Assembly (NCBI GenBank): GCA_013792075.1
Contig: VMSR01000029.1
Span: 1-45,983 of the forward strand
From: Desulfobacula sp.
GTDB taxonomy: Bacteria > Desulfobacterota > Desulfobacteria > Desulfobacterales > Desulfobacteraceae
Length of the DNA stretch: 45,983 bases
Direction: 5' to 3'
The position numbers were made by a program, and so were the translations under genes. Below the pieces are notes generated by a model. It had not been told where the DNA came from. It saw only the letters and a program-made list of their open reading frames with translations, and ran no database searches. Positions 3,429-19,398 of the stretch are shown piece by piece. Within the stretch, counting starts at the first letter, position 1. Each line of letters begins with the position of its first letter.

Positions 3429-4592
3429 ATGGATTTTAAATTATCAACCGAGCTTCAGATGCTCCAGAAAGAAGTCCGGAACTTTGCAAAAAAACAGATT
3501 GAACCCTATGCAGACGAATGGGATGAAAAGCACTATCTGCCGATCAAAGAGGTCATGCGCCCCCTGGGAGAACTGGGATATTTCGGTACTGTTATTCCCG
3601 AAGAATACGGCGGAGAAGACATGGGCTTCATGGCGGCCATGATTGTTACCGAAGAACTGGCAAAGGTTTCTTCCTCCTTAAGGGTCCAGGTGAATATGCA
3701 GGTATTGGGCTGCGCCTACACCATCTTCAAATACGGCAATGACGCGGTAAAGAAAAAATACGTGAAGAAACTCTGCACCGCTGAATATATCGGCGGCTTC
3801 GGCATCACAGAATCCGATGCAGGCTCTGATGTGATGGCCATGGCCTCCACAGCAGAAGACAAGGGGGATCACTGGCTTTTAAACGGATCCAAAACATGGA
3901 TCTCCAATGCCAATGTGGCCGACTGCCTTCTTTATTATGCCTATACAGACAAGTCCGCCGGCTCCAAAGGGCTTTCCGCCTTTGTCATTGAACCCAAAAA
4001 CTTTGCCGGCATCAAAACCTCATCCCTTGACAAACTGGGCTCCCATTCCTCCCCCACAGGAGAACTTTTCCTGGACAACGTCAAAGTTCCCAAGGAAAAC
4101 ATTCTGGGAAACCCCGGTGACGGCACAAAAATTGTTTTTTCCTCCCTGAACCAGACTCGGCTTTCAGCTGCGGCCGGTGGTGTGGGACTCGCCCAGGCCT
4201 GCCTGGATGCCGCCACCAAGTATTGCAATGAAAGAAAACAATTTGGCAAAAAAATCGGCGAGTTCCAGATGAACCAGGATATGATTGCCCAGATGACAAC
4301 GGAAATAGAAGCCGCCCGCCTCCTGGTGTACAAGGCCGCCTGGGCCAAGGATCAGGGCAGACTCAACAACGGGTTGGATGTGGCCATGGCCAAATACTTT
4401 GCAGGAGAGGTGGCCACCAAGTGTTCCAATTTTGCCATGAGAATCCTGGGCGCCTATGGATATTCCACTGAATATCCTGTGGCCAGATACTATAGAGATG
4501 CCCCCACCTATTCCATGGTGGAAGGCTCTGCCAATATCTGTAAAATGATCATTGCCCTGGATCAGCTGGGTATCAAAAAAGCCAACAGATAA
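3429..4592 (+). CDS. Acyl-CoA dehydrogenase, probable non-decarboxylating glutaryl-CoA dehydrogenase
   Basis: This 387-residue flavoprotein has the full acyl-CoA dehydrogenase fold: GGFGITESDAGSD (FAD and substrate loop near 123-135), SKTWISNA, and the catalytic base in MVEGSANI (Glu365). Arg85 aligns with the arginine that binds the distal carboxylate of glutaryl-CoA in characterised enzymes. Two positions needed for decarboxylation differ by my alignment: the residue just before the catalytic Glu is Val364 rather than Tyr, and the position of human Glu87 is Ala78. Those changes are the known hallmark of non-decarboxylating glutaryl-CoA dehydrogenase, which releases glutaconyl-CoA. A biotin-dependent decarboxylase next door fits that product. 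A GAGGAGG ribosome site precedes the ATG. Benzylsuccinyl- or other CoA dehydrogenase function is less likely. Confidence 0.78.
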   Translation: MDFKLSTELQMLQKEVRNFAKKQIEPYADEWDEKHYLPIKEVMRPLGELGYFGTVIPEEYGGEDMGFMAAMIVTEELAKVSSSLRVQVNMQVLGCAYTIFKYGNDAVKKKYVKKLCTAEYIGGFGITESDAGSDVMAMASTAEDKGDHWLLNGSKTWISNANVADCLLYYAYTDKSAGSKGLSAFVIEPKNFAGIKTSSLDKLGSHSSPTGELFLDNVKVPKENILGNPGDGTKIVFSSLNQTRLSAAAGGVGLAQACLDAATKYCNERKQFGKKIGEFQMNQDMIAQMTTEIEAARLLVYKAAWAKDQGRLNNGLDVAMAKYFAGEVATKCSNFAMRILGAYGYSTEYPVARYYRDAPTYSMVEGSANICKMIIALDQLGIKKANR

Positions 4593-5749: not shown

Positions 5750-6571
5750 CTAACATTTGCCCAGGAGGGTGTTCCAGATACCGTCGGGACATCGCCTTTC
5801 AATGACATGGACTTTTTTTGCAGAAAGGGATGCCATGATCTTGGTGGTCTCTGAATTTAAAAGCCCGGACAGGATAAACCATTTTTTTCCTAGAAAAGAG
5901 GGATGTGCGATCAAGTGCTGCATAACATCATAGTGGATATTGGCCACCAACAGGTCGCAGGGGATGGAGATCACCTCTTCCCCCTTTGCCTGGAAGGCAA
6001 GGATTTGATTTTCAAACCCATTGAGGCGTATATTCTTTAGGGTGGTTATCACAGCCAGCAGGTTGAAATCACAGGCCAGAACCCTGTCACACCCAAGGGC
6101 GGCAGCCCCCAGAGAGAGAATCCCCGTACCCGTACCAATGTCCAGAACCGTTTTAATCTTTTCCCGGGTACACAGCCGATGGACCAGTGTCAAACAGTCT
6201 TCCGTGGTCTGATGCCGGCCTGTACCGAAAACCACCCCCGGATCTAAAAGGATTTCCCGAAATTCAGGTTTTGCATCTTTTCCAGGGCGATCCCAGGGCG
6301 GGGCAATGCAAAAATTTTCCACAAAATAGGGTTCGATCTTGTCCCCGTGCCATTGCTCGCAGGTCATTTCATAGGTTTCAACCAGTGTTATCTGGGGATT
6401 TTTGACCTTTATCTGTTCAATCAGGGAGGCTGCCTGGCTGGAAAAAAAGACAAAGGCAGTCTCTTCCTCCACCCAGGTGCCCAAGAACCGTTCATCCTTT
6501 TCCACAAGACCGTCAGGTTCCGGCACACCGTCAAAATTATAAATTATCAACTGGGCATATGGATTTTTCAT
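5750..6571 (-). CDS. PrmA-like class I SAM-dependent methyltransferase (divergent)
   Basis: This 273-residue protein has the methyltransferase half of ribosomal protein L11 methyltransferase PrmA: LDPGVVFGTGRHQTTEDCL near 108-126, SAM motif DIGTGTGILSLGAA near 143-156, ACDFN as the acidic end of strand 2, and a NIHYDVM segment where PrmA has NI(I/L)A. Its N-terminus does not match the usual L11-binding domain closely. A second, more typical PrmA is encoded at 9303-10232, so this copy may have another substrate. It starts ten bases after the sensor kinase stop and is the last gene of a three-gene minus-strand operon, which hints at a role tied to that sensor. Confidence 0.75.
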   Translation of the reverse strand: MKNPYAQLIIYNFDGVPEPDGLVEKDERFLGTWVEEETAFVFFSSQAASLIEQIKVKNPQITLVETYEMTCEQWHGDKIEPYFVENFCIAPPWDRPGKDAKPEFREILLDPGVVFGTGRHQTTEDCLTLVHRLCTREKIKTVLDIGTGTGILSLGAAALGCDRVLACDFNLLAVITTLKNIRLNGFENQILAFQAKGEEVISIPCDLLVANIHYDVMQHLIAHPSFLGKKWFILSGLLNSETTKIMASLSAKKVHVIERRCPDGIWNTLLGKC

Positions 6572-12141: not shown

Positions 12142-13797
12142 GTGAATTTTGAAAGGCTCAGAATACTCCTGATTGCGGCATTTATGGCTGTTTCACTGGT
12201 GCCCCTGGCCGCCCTGGGATACAAAGTGATATCCCAGGGGGAAAACCTGATCAAAGAAAAAGCATCCTCTTACTTAGAAGGTTTGTCCACAAGAAACGCT
12301 GACGTAATAAACGGATTCATGACGGAAAGAGCAGATGATCTGAAAACGCTTTCCAATATTATTTGTATTTTTGGCTTTAATTCCACAATGCTAAAAACGC
12401 ATTTTGAAGAAATGAAGGAGCAGTACAGCCCCTATCTTGGTTTTTTTGTCCTGGATAAATCTGGAGAGTGTGTTTTCTCTACGACAGGCGTTTCTATAGA
12501 TCCTGCAAAGCTACAGGCCATCGATGAACCGACACATTCAGGTATGGATACGCATGTTAAAGAAATCTTTATGTTTACCATAGGCCAGGATCAAATTCCG
12601 GCCTTGCTGATTTGTACCTCTATCTTGGATGGATCTAAAGAAAACTGTGCACACTTATGTGCCCTGGTTGATTTCAGACTTGTTGACTCACTGCTTAGAA
12701 AAAGCAATATAGAAATTACCGGAGAAGTCTACCTGGTAGACAAAACCGGTAAATTTTTGTCTGCATCACGATTTGGAGCAAAAGCGCTCAAAGACAACAT
12801 TTCCATGAATTTCATAGCCGGAAAGAAACAAGGCATTTATGAAACAATTGATTATAGAGAGGAACGTGTATTACAGGCATATCAAAAAGTTGATGGTTTC
12901 CCATGGTATGTTATCGCAGATCAGGACATGGCGGAAATTTTGAACCGTATCAAAGCCCTGGGAAGGGAAGCTATTGTTTATGGCATGATGACGGCAATGG
13001 TTGTTTTTGGACTTGCCTTTTTTATTTCAACACTAATTGTAAATATTTTAAAAGCCAAATACCAATATGAAAAAGAACTGGAATTTCAAGTCATTCAAAA
13101 AGAAAAACTCGCATCTCTTGGTCTTCTTACATCAGGGATTGCCCATGAATTAAATACACCCCTTGCCAATGCGTTACTCTATACACAGATTGCCAAAGAG
13201 GAACTCCATGAAGCAGGAATTGAAAATAGTATCATCCAGCAAAGACTTTCCACAGTAGTTGATGAAATCAGACAGGGAAGTAAAATCATAAAAAACCTTC
13301 TTGATTTTTCCCGGCATACCCAGAATGATGCACGAACAACGGATGTCAACAAAACCCTGATAAAATTGATGCGTATTGCCGGGCCCCATTGTTCATCCAA
13401 TAAAATTAAAGTAGAAAAAGAATTGGAAAACAATATGCCGAATATAAAAGCGGATGCAAGCACCCTGCAGGCCATCTTGACAAATCTTGTTGCAAATGCC
13501 AGTGAAGCCATGCCAAATGGCGGCATATTAAGATTAAAGACCCGGTATGTGCCGGTTTTAAAAAAAATAAAAATTGAAATTGCAGATACCGGACCAGGAA
13601 TTCCCAAGGATGAACTTAACAAAATATTCAACCCATTTTTTACAACAAAAAAACAGGGGGAAGGAACAGGCTTGGGGCTTTTTATCAGCCATGAGATGGC
13701 AAGAAAGTTGGGTGGAGATATCAAAGTAATCAGTTCAACCGTGAATGATTCAATCAATTCCGGCACAGTGTTTACCGTTGAATTACCGACTGAATAG
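12142..13797 (+). CDS. Sensor histidine kinase with dCache-like extracytoplasmic domain
   Basis: This 551-residue kinase has membrane segments at about 8-28 and 279-301 that flank a large extracytoplasmic domain resembling double-Cache sensors (about 30-275; LVDKTGKFLSAS is typical of the second lobe). A short coiled coil leads to HisKA with His335 in SGIAHELNTP, then HATPase_c with NLVANASEAM, ADTGPGIP and GEGTGLGL. HAMP is absent. The GTG start is preceded by AAAGGG. It is followed 15 to 27 bases later by an NtrC-type response regulator, so the two form a cognate pair. The pair lies directly upstream of the sigma-54-driven transhydrogenase operon and probably controls it. A TATAAT at 12115-12120 may be part of its promoter. 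Confidence 0.9.
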   Translation: MNFERLRILLIAAFMAVSLVPLAALGYKVISQGENLIKEKASSYLEGLSTRNADVINGFMTERADDLKTLSNIICIFGFNSTMLKTHFEEMKEQYSPYLGFFVLDKSGECVFSTTGVSIDPAKLQAIDEPTHSGMDTHVKEIFMFTIGQDQIPALLICTSILDGSKENCAHLCALVDFRLVDSLLRKSNIEITGEVYLVDKTGKFLSASRFGAKALKDNISMNFIAGKKQGIYETIDYREERVLQAYQKVDGFPWYVIADQDMAEILNRIKALGREAIVYGMMTAMVVFGLAFFISTLIVNILKAKYQYEKELEFQVIQKEKLASLGLLTSGIAHELNTPLANALLYTQIAKEELHEAGIENSIIQQRLSTVVDEIRQGSKIIKNLLDFSRHTQNDARTTDVNKTLIKLMRIAGPHCSSNKIKVEKELENNMPNIKADASTLQAILTNLVANASEAMPNGGILRLKTRYVPVLKKIKIEIADTGPGIPKDELNKIFNPFFTTKKQGEGTGLGLFISHEMARKLGGDIKVISSTVNDSINSGTVFTVELPTE

Positions 13798-13824
13798 CTT
13801 TTTTATCATAGAATGGGAGATCCT

Positions 13825-15180
13825 ATGAAAGGGTACAAAATTTTAATTGTTGAAGATGATCAAAAAATGAACCAGGGATTGCTCCATGTTATCTCAAAAG
13901 AGGGTTATATCGCAAAAGCAGTTGATTCCGGAGAAAAAGCCCTTGAAGAAATCAAGAACACCCAATTCGATTTAATCATATCCGACTTCAAACTTCCCGG
14001 TATAAACGGAATGGAGCTTTTAAGGGCCACAAAAAAGTATGATGTTAATATCCTTTTTATAATAATTACCGCCTACGGTACGATTGACACGGCTGTTTCA
14101 GCCATGAAACAAGGTGCTGAAGATTATATTTTAAAGCCATTTGATATGGAAGAGTTGCGGCTTGTCGTAAAAAAAACCATGGAAAAACGCGAGCTGTTTT
14201 TAAATAATATCCGTTTGCAGCATCAACTTGAAAAAAAATATACATTTAAAAATATCATTGGAACCAGTGAACCCATGATGGCTGTTTTCAAAACCATTAA
14301 CCGTATCAAGAATTCAAAAGCGACCGTCCTTATCCATGGAGAGACCGGTACAGGAAAAGAACTGGTTGCCAGGGCAATACACTTTAACAGTGACAGGGCT
14401 TCAAAGCCTTATCTTCCGGTCAACTGTGCAGCACTCAGTGAGAATCTTCTGGCAAGCGAATTGTTTGGCCATGTAAAAGGCGCTTTTACCGGTGCAATAG
14501 CCGACAAGATGGGTCTGTTTGAGGCTGCAAGTGGCGGAACTATATTTCTTGATGAGATCGGGGATATCGGGTCAGGCCTTCAACAGACCTTCCTTCGGGC
14601 ATTGGAAAACGGGGAAATACAGCCGGTGGGTTCTTTTGAGAGGAAAAAAGTTTGGGTAAGAATTATTGCGGCAACAAATAAAAATCTTGAAGCCATGGTT
14701 GAACAGGGCAGTTTCAGAAAAGATCTCTACTACCGATTGAACGTTGTGATTATAGATTTGCCGCCTTTGAGAGACCGTAAAGAAGATATCGGGATACTGG
14801 CATACCATTTTTTAAAACAATATTCAGCTCAAAACAATCAAAGCATAAACCGTATTTCTCAAGAAGCGCTCCGACTGTTGGAAAAATATAACTGGCCTGG
14901 AAATGTGAGAGAACTTGAAAATATAATTGAAAGGGCAACGCTTTTTGAAGTGAGCAATGAAATCACGATAGACAGCCTTCCGTCAGCCCTGACAATGCCC
15001 CCTTTAACCTCAGATCTAAAATCTTCCCCCAAAGATATAGAATCCCTGGAACAATTGAGTAAACATCACATCATGAATGTGCTGGAAATGACCCATCAAA
15101 ATAAAACACAAGCATCAAAGCTACTGGGCATTGACCGATCCACCTTGTGGCGTATCATGAATCGTTTGGAAATGAACTAA
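13825..15180 (+). CDS. NtrC-family sigma-54-dependent response regulator
   Basis: The protein has a receiver domain (about 1-120, phosphorylated Asp54 in IISDFKLPG), an AAA+ domain with Walker A GETGTGKE, the sigma-54 contact loop GAFTGA, DEIGDI, and R-finger region, and a C-terminal Fis-type helix-turn-helix ending in [20 protein letters not shown] place the start at ATG 13825, because GGAG lies five bases upstream; an ATG at 13813 would add four residues. A perfect 16-bp inverted repeat and a sigma-54 promoter lie just after the gene, so the natural target is the operon that follows. It is paired with the kinase before it. Confidence 0.93.
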
Positions 15181-15336: not shown

Positions 15337-15352
15337 TGGCACACTCTTTGCT
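15337..15352 (+). promoter_or_regulatory. Sigma-54 promoter of the transhydrogenase operon
   Basis: TGGCACACTCTTTGCT matches the -24/-12 consensus TGGCAC-N5-TTGCW exactly. Transcription should start near 15363, about 79 bases before the first gene of the operon. Confidence 0.85.
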
Positions 15353-15441: not shown

Positions 15442-15891
15442 ATGAAAGATTATATTTTCGGGAATTTAAATGACTGGGGAATCGTTTTAGAAAAACTGGA
15501 AAACCTATCACAGACCAGGGAACTGGATCATTATCAAGATGAATTAATCCGTCTGCTACGTTTTGACCAGAATTGGCGCTTGCGTGAAGCCGCAATTGAA
15601 TATTTGCCTTCTATAAAGAACCCGAGTCTTACGCTGGCAAGGGAAGTGACCGCATTAATAAAGCGAAAGGATCTTTATTATGATGTCAGAATACTGGCCA
15701 CTGACGGTCTTGAAAAACTGGCAACAACCATTGTTGGCAATAAAGCCTTTGACAAAGACATCTTGAAACAATTCATCCAGGGAATTGTGAAAGACATGGA
15801 TGATTTGCTGGCCTCACCTGAACCGCCAATCTTTCACGATGCTTTGCAAAACTCAATGTGCCAGGTCAAAAAAATTGAAGCACAAATTTAA
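15442..15891 (+). CDS. HEAT-repeat-like protein, first gene of the transhydrogenase operon
   Basis: This 149-residue, soluble, helical protein is not a recognised named family. It has helix pairs that resemble HEAT-like repeats: DELIRLLRFDQNWRLREAAIEYLPSI near 32-57 and YDVRILATDGLEKLATTIVG near 78-97. Such proteins usually mediate protein contacts. An AGGAGAGGA ribosome site precedes the ATG. It is the first gene after the sigma-54 promoter and is followed by the alpha subunit of transhydrogenase 52 bases later. An assembly or regulatory partner of the transhydrogenase is a guess from position only. Confidence 0.7.
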   Translation: MKDYIFGNLNDWGIVLEKLENLSQTRELDHYQDELIRLLRFDQNWRLREAAIEYLPSIKNPSLTLAREVTALIKRKDLYYDVRILATDGLEKLATTIVGNKAFDKDILKQFIQGIVKDMDDLLASPEPPIFHDALQNSMCQVKKIEAQI

Positions 15892-15943: not shown

Positions 15944-17101
15944 ATGCTGATTGGAATACCCAAAGAAATAATGCACAAAGAAAACAGGGTTGCAGCACTT
16001 CCGGAAACCGTTGCAAAATTTAAAGCTCTTGGATTTAATGTGATTATAGAGACAACGGCAGGGACAGGTGCCTTTACGGATGATGAAGCTTACCTAAAAG
16101 CCGGGGCTGTAATTGCAAAGGATGCTGTCGAAGTTTTCGACAAAGCAGATATCATCTTAAAGGTTAAGGAACCCATGTTCAATAAGCAGTTCGATAAGCA
16201 TGAAATCGATATGTTAAAAGAAAACCAGATGCTTATCACCTTTCTGCACCCGGCAGCGCCTTCAAACCATGGTGATGTTAAAAAACTGCAGGACAGGAAC
16301 ATTACGGCATTTACAATGGATGGAATCCCCAGGATTTCAAGGGCACAGCGCATGGACCCCTTAACCTCCATGAGTGCCATCACAGGATATAAAGCCATCA
16401 TTATTGCTGCAGCTAATTTTCCAAAATTTATTCCCATGATCGGCACATCCATTGGAATGATAAAGCCGGCCAATATTTTGGTGATAGGTACCGGTGTTGT
16501 AGGACTTCAGGCAATTGCAACGGGAAAAAGACTGGGAGGGGTTGTAAAGGCCATCGATATCCGGCCGGATGCCAAAAAAGAGGCAGAAAGCTTAGGCGTC
16601 AAAGTAGTGGGTTTTGATGCACCGCCGGAGCTTGCAGTTGGAGAAGGAGGTTATGCCAAAGCACTTCCGGAAGAATGGATTGAAAAGGAAAGACAAGAAC
16701 TGGCACCTTTGGTTGCAGATTCTGATATCATTGTTTTAAGTGCTCTTGTCCCGGGTGAAGTTGCCCAGCATTTGATCACTAAAAAGATGGTTGAATCCAT
16801 GAAACCCGGATCTGTCATTATTGACGTATCCATTGATCAGGGAGGAAATTGTGCTATGACCGACCCTGGAAAAGAAATAATTCATGAAGGCGTTTACATC
16901 TGCGGGATTAAAAATATACCCGGATCACTGCCGGTTCACTCTTCCTGGCTCTACGCCAATAATCTTTATTACTTTGTTGAAAACCTGTTTAAAAACGGCT
17001 CAAATGAATTTGATCTGTCAGATGAAATCGTCAGGGGAGCTCTTGTGACACACAAGGGCAAACTATATCATGAAGGCACGCTCAAGGCCATGGGTCACTA
17101 A
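15944..17101 (+). CDS. pntA: NAD(P) transhydrogenase alpha subunit, domain I
   Basis: This 385-residue protein is domain I of the proton-translocating transhydrogenase, which binds NAD(H) on the cytoplasmic side. Visible motifs are the N-terminal GIPKEIMHKENRVAALP, the mobile-loop segment PRISRAQRMDPLTSMSAITGY near 127-147, and the nucleotide fold VIGTGVVGLQAIATGKRLG near 181-199 with the acidic AIDIRPD that favours NAD. It ends with IPGSLPVHSSWLYANNL, as in PntA. It has no membrane helices; these are in the separate 98-residue gene that follows, so the alpha subunit is split as in Rhodospirillum rubrum (PntAA/PntAB). Confidence 0.93.
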   Translation: MLIGIPKEIMHKENRVAALPETVAKFKALGFNVIIETTAGTGAFTDDEAYLKAGAVIAKDAVEVFDKADIILKVKEPMFNKQFDKHEIDMLKENQMLITFLHPAAPSNHGDVKKLQDRNITAFTMDGIPRISRAQRMDPLTSMSAITGYKAIIIAAANFPKFIPMIGTSIGMIKPANILVIGTGVVGLQAIATGKRLGGVVKAIDIRPDAKKEAESLGVKVVGFDAPPELAVGEGGYAKALPEEWIEKERQELAPLVADSDIIVLSALVPGEVAQHLITKKMVESMKPGSVIIDVSIDQGGNCAMTDPGKEIIHEGVYICGIKNIPGSLPVHSSWLYANNLYYFVENLFKNGSNEFDLSDEIVRGALVTHKGKLYHEGTLKAMGH

Positions 17102-17129: not shown

Positions 17130-17426
17130 ATGACAAATCTTTTATTGATGGCAGGTGTTTTTCTATTCTCCTTTGTGGTGGGGTATTTTCTCATTTCCCG
17201 GATTCCCACATTGCTTCATACACCACTGATGTCCATGACAAATGCCATCTCTGCCGTCACCATATTAGGCGTTTTGATTCTTTTTTCAGTTTCATCAACA
17301 AGGACCGAGCAGATAATTGGGTCAGTGGCATTTATCATGGCCGCGTTCAACCTTGTTGGCGGGTTTGCGATTACCGACCGGATGTTGCGGTTGTTTAAAA
17401 AAAAAGGGGTAGCGAATAATGACTGA
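17130..17426 (+). CDS. NAD(P) transhydrogenase alpha subunit 2, membrane part
   Basis: This 98-residue protein has three hydrophobic segments (about 3-20, 42-55 and 62-82) and the family sequence SMTNAISAVTILGVLILF, followed by GFAITDRMLRLFKKK at the C-terminus. It is the PntAB part of membrane domain II. It starts 28 bases after the alpha-1 gene with a CCAGGAGCAG ribosome site and overlaps the beta gene by eight bases, so the three subunits are translated together. Confidence 0.93.
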   Translation: MTNLLLMAGVFLFSFVVGYFLISRIPTLLHTPLMSMTNAISAVTILGVLILFSVSSTRTEQIIGSVAFIMAAFNLVGGFAITDRMLRLFKKKGVANND

Positions 17427-19398
17427 AACATACCCTGCCATGAACCTGCTCCTGGATTTTTGTGTCATCGCTATCCTGATACTGGGAATCTGGCTGTTTC
17501 ATTGGCCCCACAGGGCAAAATTCGGCAACCTTACAGCGGCTTTTGCTTTGGCGTGTGCGGCAGCTCTGGTTCTTTATCGAAACGGAAGCATGCATCCCAA
17601 TATTTTGCTGATATCCCTTGTTATCGGTTCTGTAGCAGGATTCTGGGTGGCCAGGAAAATCACAATGATCCAGATTCCTGCCATGGTTGCCTTTCAGCAT
17701 GGTGCCGGCGGGGTTGCTGCTTTCTTTCTTTCCCTTGCCGAACTGATGCGGGGATCTCAACACCTTGGAATTGTGAATGAAATTTCCGGCCTCTTAGGTC
17801 TTGCAATCGGATCATTGACCTTTAGCGGCAGCATGATCGCCGGTGGAAAGCTGTCCAACAAACTTGGACAGGCCCAGCAGATCCTTCCAAAACATACCTT
17901 GCTTGTCCTGGCAAATTTTATCAGCATTGTTGTGCTGATCATCGCAGCAATTATAGCGCCCATGGAAAGCCGAATATACCTTTATATTCTAATTATTTTC
18001 ATGTCGGTGCTGTTCGGCATTATCTTTTCCATTCGCATTGGCGGAGCTGATATGCCGGTTTTAATTTCATTTTTAAATGCCACAGCAGGTGTGGCTGCAG
18101 CCTTTTGCGGAATGATTATCGAAAACAAGCTGTTAATTTCCTGCGGGGCAACCGTGGCGGCATCAGGATCAATATTGACCCATGTTATGTGCAAAGGAAT
18201 GAATCGCAGCCTTTACAGGGTTTTTGTCCCTGTTCAGAATATTTCATCCAAAAAGAAAATTTCCAAGACGGATACAACTGATATGGAAATTATCGAGCCG
18301 GAAACCAGCCATCCGTTCATTGGGAAAGACAATTTTCAAAAAGCACTTGGGTATGCACGGGAAGCAAAAAACGTCATTATCGTTCCAGGATATGGGATGG
18401 CTGTTGCACAGGCACAGTTTGCAGTCATTGCGCTTTCCAATATCCTGCTTGATATGGGAAAGGATGTCAAGTTTGCCATCCATCCGGTGGCTGGCCGAAT
18501 GCCGGGGCACATGAATGTGCTTCTTGCCGAAGCAGGTATTGACTATGATCTGCTCAAAGAGATGGATGAAATCAACCCTGACTTCCCAAAGACAGATTTG
18601 TCTTTGGTCATTGGGGCATGTGATGTGGTCAATCCGGCTGCCATAGCGGTTGACGGTTCTCCCATATCAGGAATGCCGATCCTGCACACCCATGAATCAA
18701 AACATGTTGTGTGTTGTAACCTGGATGGCAAACCCGGATATTCAGGTGTTGAAAATCCCTTGTATGAAAACAGCAACACAACCCTGCTGCTTGGAAATGC
18801 AAAAGAAACAATCGAACGACTGGTTGAAGATCTTTCAAAGCCAGCGTCTGATAGTGATGCGTCTTCAAACAAAATGGATCAGAAAAACCCCTTGGATTTA
18901 GCCGTTGCTGCACTTTTGTCTGCCCAAAAAATAATCATCATACCCGGATATGGCATGGCGTTGGCACAGGCACAGTTCAAGGTGGTTCAACTGGCTTCAA
19001 TGCTTGAATCAATGGGTGCGGATGTGAAGTTTGCCATTCACCCGGTGGCGGGGAGAATGCCGGGACACATGAATGTGCTTCTTGCCGAAGCCGATATCGA
19101 TTACGACAAGCTTTACGAGATGGATGATATCAATTCTGAATTCAAACAGACAGATGTTGTAATCGTTTTCGGTGCTTGCGACGTGGTCAACCCGGCTGCA
19201 ATGAATACCAAAGGGACTCCCATCTCCGGAATGCCGATACTGATGGCCCATGATGCAAAAAGAATACTCATCTGTAATTTTGATGCAAAACCAGGTTATT
19301 CCGGGGTTGAAAACACCTTATATGAAAACCCTAAAACGATAATGCTATTAGGCGATGCAGCATCAACAGCAAAAGATTTGATAGCGGCATTAAATTGA
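17419..19398 (+). CDS. pntB: NAD(P) transhydrogenase beta subunit with duplicated domain III
   Basis: At 659 residues this is about 200 longer than usual PntB. Residues 1-265 form membrane domain II, with His94 in QHGAGGVAAFF at the place of the proton-channel histidine. Two tandem domain III copies follow (about 300-470 and 490-659), both with GYGMA(V/L)AQAQ (324, 510), HPVAGRMPGHMNVLLAEA (355, 541) and GACDVVNPAA (399, 585), offset by 186 residues. In well-studied enzymes GANDTVN and KRS contact NADP(H); here N is C, and the KRS segment reads NLD or NFD before KPGYSG in copies 1 and 2. This suggests altered recognition of the 2'-phosphate. The gene is otherwise an uninterrupted operon member followed by a terminator at 19497. 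Confidence 0.92.
   Translation: MTETYPAMNLLLDFCVIAILILGIWLFHWPHRAKFGNLTAAFALACAAALVLYRNGSMHPNILLISLVIGSVAGFWVARKITMIQIPAMVAFQHGAGGVAAFFLSLAELMRGSQHLGIVNEISGLLGLAIGSLTFSGSMIAGGKLSNKLGQAQQILPKHTLLVLANFISIVVLIIAAIIAPMESRIYLYILIIFMSVLFGIIFSIRIGGADMPVLISFLNATAGVAAAFCGMIIENKLLISCGATVAASGSILTHVMCKGMNRSLYRVFVPVQNISSKKKISKTDTTDMEIIEPETSHPFIGKDNFQKALGYAREAKNVIIVPGYGMAVAQAQFAVIALSNILLDMGKDVKFAIHPVAGRMPGHMNVLLAEAGIDYDLLKEMDEINPDFPKTDLSLVIGACDVVNPAAIAVDGSPISGMPILHTHESKHVVCCNLDGKPGYSGVENPLYENSNTTLLLGNAKETIERLVEDLSKPASDSDASSNKMDQKNPLDLAVAALLSAQKIIIIPGYGMALAQAQFKVVQLASMLESMGADVKFAIHPVAGRMPGHMNVLLAEADIDYDKLYEMDDINSEFKQTDVVIVFGACDVVNPAAMNTKGTPISGMPILMAHDAKRILICNFDAKPGYSGVENTLYENPKTIMLLGDAASTAKDLIAALN

Follow-up and report, generated by a model that had tools for sequence, protein, structure and literature searches.

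A transhydrogenase-family branch with one to four domains III per beta subunit and alanine dehydrogenase-type residues in its partner subunit

What does a transhydrogenase beta subunit do with two nucleotide-binding domains III (dIII)? The question is raised by a pntB gene in a 45,983-nucleotide stretch of Desulfobacula sp. DNA (contig VMSR01000029.1; the whole analyzed stretch is called the window below, and all features given here lie on its + strand). Transhydrogenase serves as a model of how a moving domain can link hydride transfer with a proton channel: passages of two papers (PMC8551311, PMC9529548) propose that dIII swings between domain I (dI) and the membrane domain (dII), and that the proton channel is linked to the exchange of the nucleotide in dIII. 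Since natural enzymes exist with one to four such moving domains, this model can be tested directly. We place the window enzyme in a clade marked by an N-x-D motif where canonical enzymes carry K-R-S, and we give a probability of roughly 40% to our main reading, in which this clade would be a proton-coupled hydride-transfer complex with tethered, NAD(H)-binding dIII carriers and a dI pocket like that of alanine dehydrogenase (Ald).

The pntB gene (17419..19398) is one unbroken frame of 659 codons plus a stop, encoding a single membrane domain followed by two copies of dIII, and the Pfam PNTB profile matches it in two stretches (729 bits). Copy a covers about residues 303-475 (18325..18843), with GACD starting at residue 399 and NLD in place of K-R-S at residues 434-436 (18718..18726); copy b covers about residues 491-658 (18889..19392), with GACD starting at residue 585 and NFD at residues 620-622 (19276..19284). 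Open reading frame, self-alignment and Pfam matches thus bear out the claim of a first-pass annotation of this DNA that two dIII, offset by 186 residues, lie in one uninterrupted frame, and a reading of the individual positions agrees with the replacements it gave for K-R-S and for GAND. An AlphaFold2 model, a check that the annotation had proposed, shows the identical series of helices and strands in both copies (28-sequence alignment, mean pLDDT 78.5, pTM 0.56). Its pLDDT falls below 50 at residues 273-302 and, in the linker between the copies (18844..18888), at residues 477-488; a Foldseek search with the model matched PntB holoenzymes and isolated dIII structures.

The copies are identical at 104/176 protein positions (59%) and 335/528 DNA positions (63%). 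Since their third codon positions agree at only 45%, the duplication must be old, and the divergence at all three levels suggests that both copies have probably long been held under protein selection. The source genome is a draft of 308 contigs that gave a single pntB match, and a draft of this kind leaves some room for an assembly or sequencing artefact. We nevertheless rejected an assembly duplication and consider an artefact of either kind to have a negligible chance, because the copies diverge at the codon level, tandem homologues occur in independent assemblies, and multi-dIII arrays lie inside contigs of 3.4-5.6 Mb. Ten other open reading frames of the window were scanned and contributed nothing to the question.

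Homologues with two dIII, which the annotation had suggested looking for, were found with two to four copies in Desulfobacterales, in one further family of their phylum and in Firmicutes (here, the phylum of a Desulfosporosinus genome), and the canonical K-R-S lineage also has double-dIII PntBs. The idea that the tandem is unique to the source genome was dropped in view of these many relatives, and the annotation's premise that known PntB has one dIII holds for the solved PntB chains but not for PntB generally. Matches came from 19 of 58 genomes (the window's own and those closest to it), 12 of the 19 with a two-dIII frame. A sample of 394 genomes spread evenly over the phylum gave 43 matches, and two or more dIII are present in at least 7 of these, frames being counted where loci were returned and the remaining genomes judged from their match rows. 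Family f67, to which genome G177 belongs, gave matches in 19/247 genomes, of which 14 were fetched; four-copy genes occur in nine genomes of this family, three-copy genes are found in G335 and G452, and G624 and G662 have a three-copy gene as a second locus. Four-copy genes lie inside contigs of 3.4-3.7 Mb in G638, G662, G624 and G959. The Firmicutes sample matched in 34/299 genomes, with two to four dIII in 12 of the 28 loci looked at (27 longer regions that were fetched, plus L043; six matching genomes were left aside). The class of G204 matched in 17/63 genomes, and 8 of the 9 fetched have two-dIII enzymes with K-R-S or K-R-G. The tandem form is also carried by G021.

For residue and copy counts we assembled 152 loci (L001, the best 80 of 331 relatives and 71 of 72 fetched regions, the remnant L148 having been excluded beforehand), reduced to 146 once repeated proteins and one locus lacking pntB had been removed. 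The N-x-D loci comprise 22 with single, 30 with double, 5 with triple and 12 with quadruple dIII, the K-R-x loci 65 single and 8 double, and 4 loci have broken or partial dIII; these are not population frequencies, as the set was gathered mainly with N-x-D queries and includes two loci each from two genomes. Linkers joining the dIII of proteins with one to four copies are 15-63 residues long. Those of the window PntB are not Ala/Pro-rich (8% and 20% Ala+Pro, the latter between the copies), while between-copy linkers reach 30-60% in the nine four-copy f67 proteins and span 5-42% in Firmicutes four-copy proteins. Within a protein, the copies share 59-68% identity in the group to which the window belongs and 73-99% in the others, except for one case of 60%. 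The annotation had known of no description of such an arrangement, and we likewise found none of a PntB with several dIII in the open-licence literature searched; this branch of the PNT family, with up to four dIII, appears to have been overlooked.

The locus belongs to the PNT fold family, with AlaDh_PNT, PNTB_4TM and PNTB (PF02233) domains in the gene order pntA1 (dI, 385 residues; 15944..17101; PNT-type domain by Pfam, PDB and Ald alignment), pntA2 (98 residues; 17130..17426; the membrane part of the alpha subunit, by Pfam) and pntB. With PntAB (EC 1.6.1.2; structures 4o9u, 6qti and 9l76) it shares this subunit order, the dI/dII/dIII plan, the proton-path residues and the nucleotide-loop motifs of dIII; it differs by its two dIII in place of a single one (relatives have one to four), by N-x-D replacing K-R-S, and by a Lys, a His and an Asp of Ald type in dI. 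Its proteins score below the NCBIfam equivalog cut-offs (PRK09444 519.4 of 689; PRK09424 369.4 of 383; TIGR00561 336.7 of 444.4), which for PntA is weak evidence because PRK09424 and TIGR00561 model one-piece alpha subunits, so that a split alpha subunit scores low anyway, and no canonical control was scanned. In the model and alignment, dII (17419..18234) carries His94 and Asn220 at the positions of E. coli beta-H91 and beta-N222. Across the N-x-D rows the proton path is retained (E. coli numbers: D213 73/73, S139 73/73, N222 72/73, R265 70/73), and position 91, in TM9, is H in 36 rows and N in 37.

The K-R-S motif that is missing from both window dIII copies corresponds to K424-R425-S426, which according to passages of PMC9529548 is part of the site where E. 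coli PntB binds NADP(H); the same source attributes selectivity for NADP over NAD to loops D and E. N-x-D in its place marks the whole clade, single-copy and tandem enzymes alike. We sorted dIII copies longer than 140 residues with a readable motif by its first letter (N or K), so that the other positions alone count as a result. Asp stands at the Ser position in 144/144 N-x-D copies, the Arg of the motif is invariant in K-R-x copies (81/81), and the Lys of GDAK is Lys or Arg in 99% of K-R-x versus 31% of N-x-D copies. No new invariant basic residue has appeared in N-x-D dIII; four residues after the N, 81% of copies have Lys or Arg, which could in principle hold a phosphate, and several Desulfobacteraceae copies have Asn or Gln. 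From this pattern, dIII of the N-x-D clade probably binds NAD(H), and the annotation's suggestion of an altered NAD(H)/NADP(H) preference stands as a well-supported prediction. The motif change is nevertheless independent of the tandem arrangement: single-copy N-x-D enzymes and tandem K-R-S enzymes both exist, on which ground we also rejected the idea that the N-x-D change caused the tandem. The accompanying change of GAND to GACD holds for the window copies but not for the clade, as GAND is kept in many Firmicutes members and in the four-copy f67 enzymes.

The partner subunit had been left aside in the first-pass annotation, and dI changes the functional question. Aligned with Ald, the window dI has R15, K75, H102, M143, D298 and N324 at the positions of Ald R15, K75, H96, M133, D270 and N300 (the last of which we take to be a pocket position), and it equals the two true Ald proteins of its own genome at all six; the catalytic and carboxylate residues R15, K75, H96 and D270 are thus all present. 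Passages of PMC10401832 report that alanine dehydrogenase activity is abolished by Ala at R15, K75, H96 or the Asp, and passages of PMC4691113 report the same for H96 and D270 and describe M133 as touching the nicotinamide ring. Among the 131 of 146 loci with at least 300 residues of dI, the string RKHMDN occupies these positions in 64/64 complete N-x-D dI and 0/60 K-R-x dI, as against 2/2 true Ald; three further N-x-D dI that lack the N-terminal stretch read KHMDN, and dI of the four loci with broken or partial dIII reads RKHMDN. In K-R-x dI the Lys occurs in 0/60, the His in 0/60 and the Asp in 1/60. R15 is found in every row that covers it, N300 is common in K-R-x dI and M133 occurs in about half of them, so the argument hinges on the Lys, the His and the Asp.

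This dI also differs from Ald. The window protein shares with Ald the AlaDh_PNT N and C families as well as the six positions, but it aligns with PntA along its whole length and is overall much nearer to it, and its score against the Ald model TIGR00518 is 179.3 bits, below the cut-off of 391.85. Two PNT features that neither Ald protein has set it apart, namely the G-Y-A loop motif (66/67 N-x-D dI) and the R-Q-D segment PRIS-RAQ-MD-L, which is kept in the window dI; as judged by eye, the window dI also retains the motifs of the PntA NAD site, and membrane partners are a further difference from Ald. N-x-D dI also has a two-residue insertion directly after the His that Ald lacks (N-H in 59/67; N-R, N-K or N-Y in the other 8), and for this reason the substrate, or ligand, of dI may be something other than alanine. 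A true Ald above the cut-off coexists in 20/50 N-x-D genomes, and the source genome encodes two, which counts against our main reading; with 0/10 genomes of genus g107 having one, the absence of a stand-alone Ald gives mixed support. The pocket may also be a relic of an ancestor or a binding site for an effector.

A mechanism can be proposed from these residues. If dIII held NAD(H) instead of NADP(H), exchange from NAD to NAD would lack a redox driving force and would amount to a mere proton leak, and it is for this reason that we propose a live Ald-type pocket in dI. A small 2-amino or 2-oxo acid would trade a hydride with NAD held in dI, where a working alanine dehydrogenase-like pocket would be retained; the hydride would then move from this dI-bound NAD, acting as a relay, to NAD in a dIII, the exchanged product. 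Hydride transfer would take place at dI and nucleotide exchange at dII, where the movement of a proton would be coupled to the loss of NAD(H) by dIII. The net reaction would be that of a substrate:NAD+ oxidoreductase coupled to the proton motive force, in either direction. Several dIII on flexible linkers would act as parallel tethered hydride carriers, one docking on dI while another docks on dII. Tandem lipoyl domains of pyruvate dehydrogenase E2 and tandem acyl carrier proteins, whose repetition raises throughput, are likewise small domains on linkers in variable number; their folds are unrelated to dIII, and the analogy is one of working only. The annotation had spoken of competing or alternating dIII, which is compatible with the data, but copy numbers from one to four are easier to reconcile with tethered carriers that are interchangeable than with a pair of specialised sites.

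We put forward only tentatively the stronger claim that the clade is a new ion-coupled dehydrogenase, in which redox chemistry between a small amino or oxo acid and NAD would drive or use proton translocation through the transhydrogenase membrane domain by way of one to four swinging NAD(H)-dIII, and which would possibly be ancestral to NADP-linked transhydrogenase. The open-licence literature searched yielded no description of a proton-coupled alanine dehydrogenase or a dehydrogenase of like kind. If dIII is NAD-specific and the dI pocket live, a new energy-coupling reaction exists, and the customary annotation of these proteins as suppliers of NADPH is wrong for the clade in many anaerobes.

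The most serious competitor, possible though doubtful, is an ordinary proton-translocating NAD(H)/NADP(H) transhydrogenase in which other residues hold the 2'-phosphate and the tandem merely raises the local concentration of dIII. Such an enzyme would account for the remaining dIII motifs and the PNT features of dI; PntAB is, moreover, listed for sulfate reducers such as D. autotrophicum in a passage of PMC4969296. The basic residue that most N-x-D copies have four places after the N would be a candidate for the phosphate contact, but it is not invariant and gives way to Asn or Gln in the Desulfobacteraceae copies mentioned above. Loss of all three K-R-S letters together with gain of an invariant Asp also speaks against this explanation, which leaves the Ald-type Lys, His and Asp of dI without a role. 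These three residues are equally unexplained if dI and dIII each bind NAD(H) and nothing else reacts, giving a proton-coupled NAD/NAD exchange that would serve as a regulated valve or balance device for the proton motive force. The PntA-like NAD-site motifs of dI and the lost K-R-S fit this exchange, and a sigma-54 promoter match (below) suggests conditional expression; the proton motive force would be wasted, however, and conservation across two phyla argues for some gain, and we regard the exchange as improbable.

Slightly better, though still unlikely, are the prospects of specialised copies, one dIII being catalytic and the other regulatory or structural, for instance always docked on dII. 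Five nearly fixed differences distinguish copies a and b across 19 tandem Desulfobacterales enzymes, and on a dIII tree the two form separate groups with moderate support (80-89; 97 for the core of a), in keeping with their identity of only 59-68%. Against such a division of labor, the nucleotide-site motifs are kept in both copies, within-protein copies outside this group are nearly all far more alike, and one single-dIII relative, which groups with copy b on the tree, keeps a b-type copy alone.

Trees suggest that the arrays are labile. On a quick tree of dI+dII from 67 loci, with dIII left out and three broken or truncated loci not counted, the state changes between single and multiple dIII at least 10 times, 9 of them within N-x-D, where the starred branches force 8 changes of the multiple label; a change could be either a gain or a loss. 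In the tree of dIII, copies often cluster within their own protein. Together with the varied identity between copies, these patterns indicate that dIII arrays grow, shrink and perhaps homogenise. The f67 enzymes, although from the window's phylum, group with Firmicutes enzymes on the dI+dII tree, which suggests transfer between phyla. One fully supported branch of the dIII tree divides N-x-D from K-R-x, so the perfect co-variation of dIII motif and dI residues may rest on a single evolutionary event. In an Ald-rooted quick tree of dI, K-R-x forms one clade placed inside N-x-D; an AU test did not reject N-x-D as one clade (p 0.73), and a better tree was found with N-x-D monophyletic.

The surroundings of the operon bear on when the enzyme is made. 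A search for a common metabolic gene that might hint at the substrate saw none in the N-x-D neighbourhoods, where Pfam was run on ten chosen neighbours. Upstream of the window operon lie a sensor histidine kinase (12142..13797; dCache_1, HisKA and HATPase_c), which by its position possibly senses for the pnt operon, and a sigma-54 response regulator (13813..15180; receiver, Sigma54_activat and HTH_8). They are followed by a predicted sigma-54 promoter, TGGCACACTCTTTGCT (15337..15352), which agrees at 11/11 positions with the -24/-12 consensus. Between this match and pntA1 is a gene for a 149-residue protein (15442..15891) that has no Pfam or NCBIfam match and whose family occurs at 10/73 N-x-D loci examined, the window included. 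A gene of the kinase/regulator-type family adjoins the operon in 28/73 N-x-D loci examined, and in the Firmicutes set a sigma-54 activator stands beside three operons (L268, L269 and L271). Requiring the GG and GC and at least 9/11 positions, with the expectation taken from 50 letter shuffles per operon, we found a sigma-54 site upstream of pntA in 21/68 N-x-D operons versus 3.2 expected, the loci being mutually related and the 21 sites thus not independent cases, and in 4/58 K-R-x operons versus 4.1 expected. With sites and activators both beside the operon, the N-x-D enzyme looks conditionally expressed, as opposed to a constant supplier of NADPH.

Two tandem copies of the nucleotide-binding domain III (dIII) were also found in canonical transhydrogenases carrying the K-R-S (or K-R-G) motif, at pntAB loci L143, L144 and L248-L253 from the class of genome G204; these enzymes represent a second tandem lineage, whose cofactor is likely the ordinary one. 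Two genomes (G624 and G662) have two pntAB loci each (L238-L241), one with four dIII copies and the other with three.

Some loci contain decayed or fragmented copies. At L260 (G811), an intact two-dIII pntB is followed, on the minus strand (about 3697-4133), by a decayed third dIII copy whose reading frame shifts and is interrupted by stop codons, a sign that the array has shrunk. Approximately three dIII copies are split among several frames at L281 (G884) and L282 (G734), reflecting either decay or sequencing errors. A degenerate second dIII-like stretch at L148 (G044; 5878-6330), with 37% identity to copy b, the second dIII of the window PntB, is apparently a pntB remnant. At L147, in a genome assembled as one contig of 4.96 Mb (G030), pntB is broken after the dII part, close to the dIII start; the intervening stretch resembles an insertion element carrying a transposase frame, probably of the IS256/Mutator family.

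In the dI+dII tree, the N-x-D enzymes of family f67 (L139, L140, L244, L245 and L247), which belongs to the same phylum as the window, cluster with Firmicutes enzymes, and this placement suggests transfer between phyla.

A 149-aa protein of unassigned family is encoded in the window (15442-15891) between the predicted sigma-54 promoter match and pntA, and is present in 10 of the 73 N-x-D loci examined.
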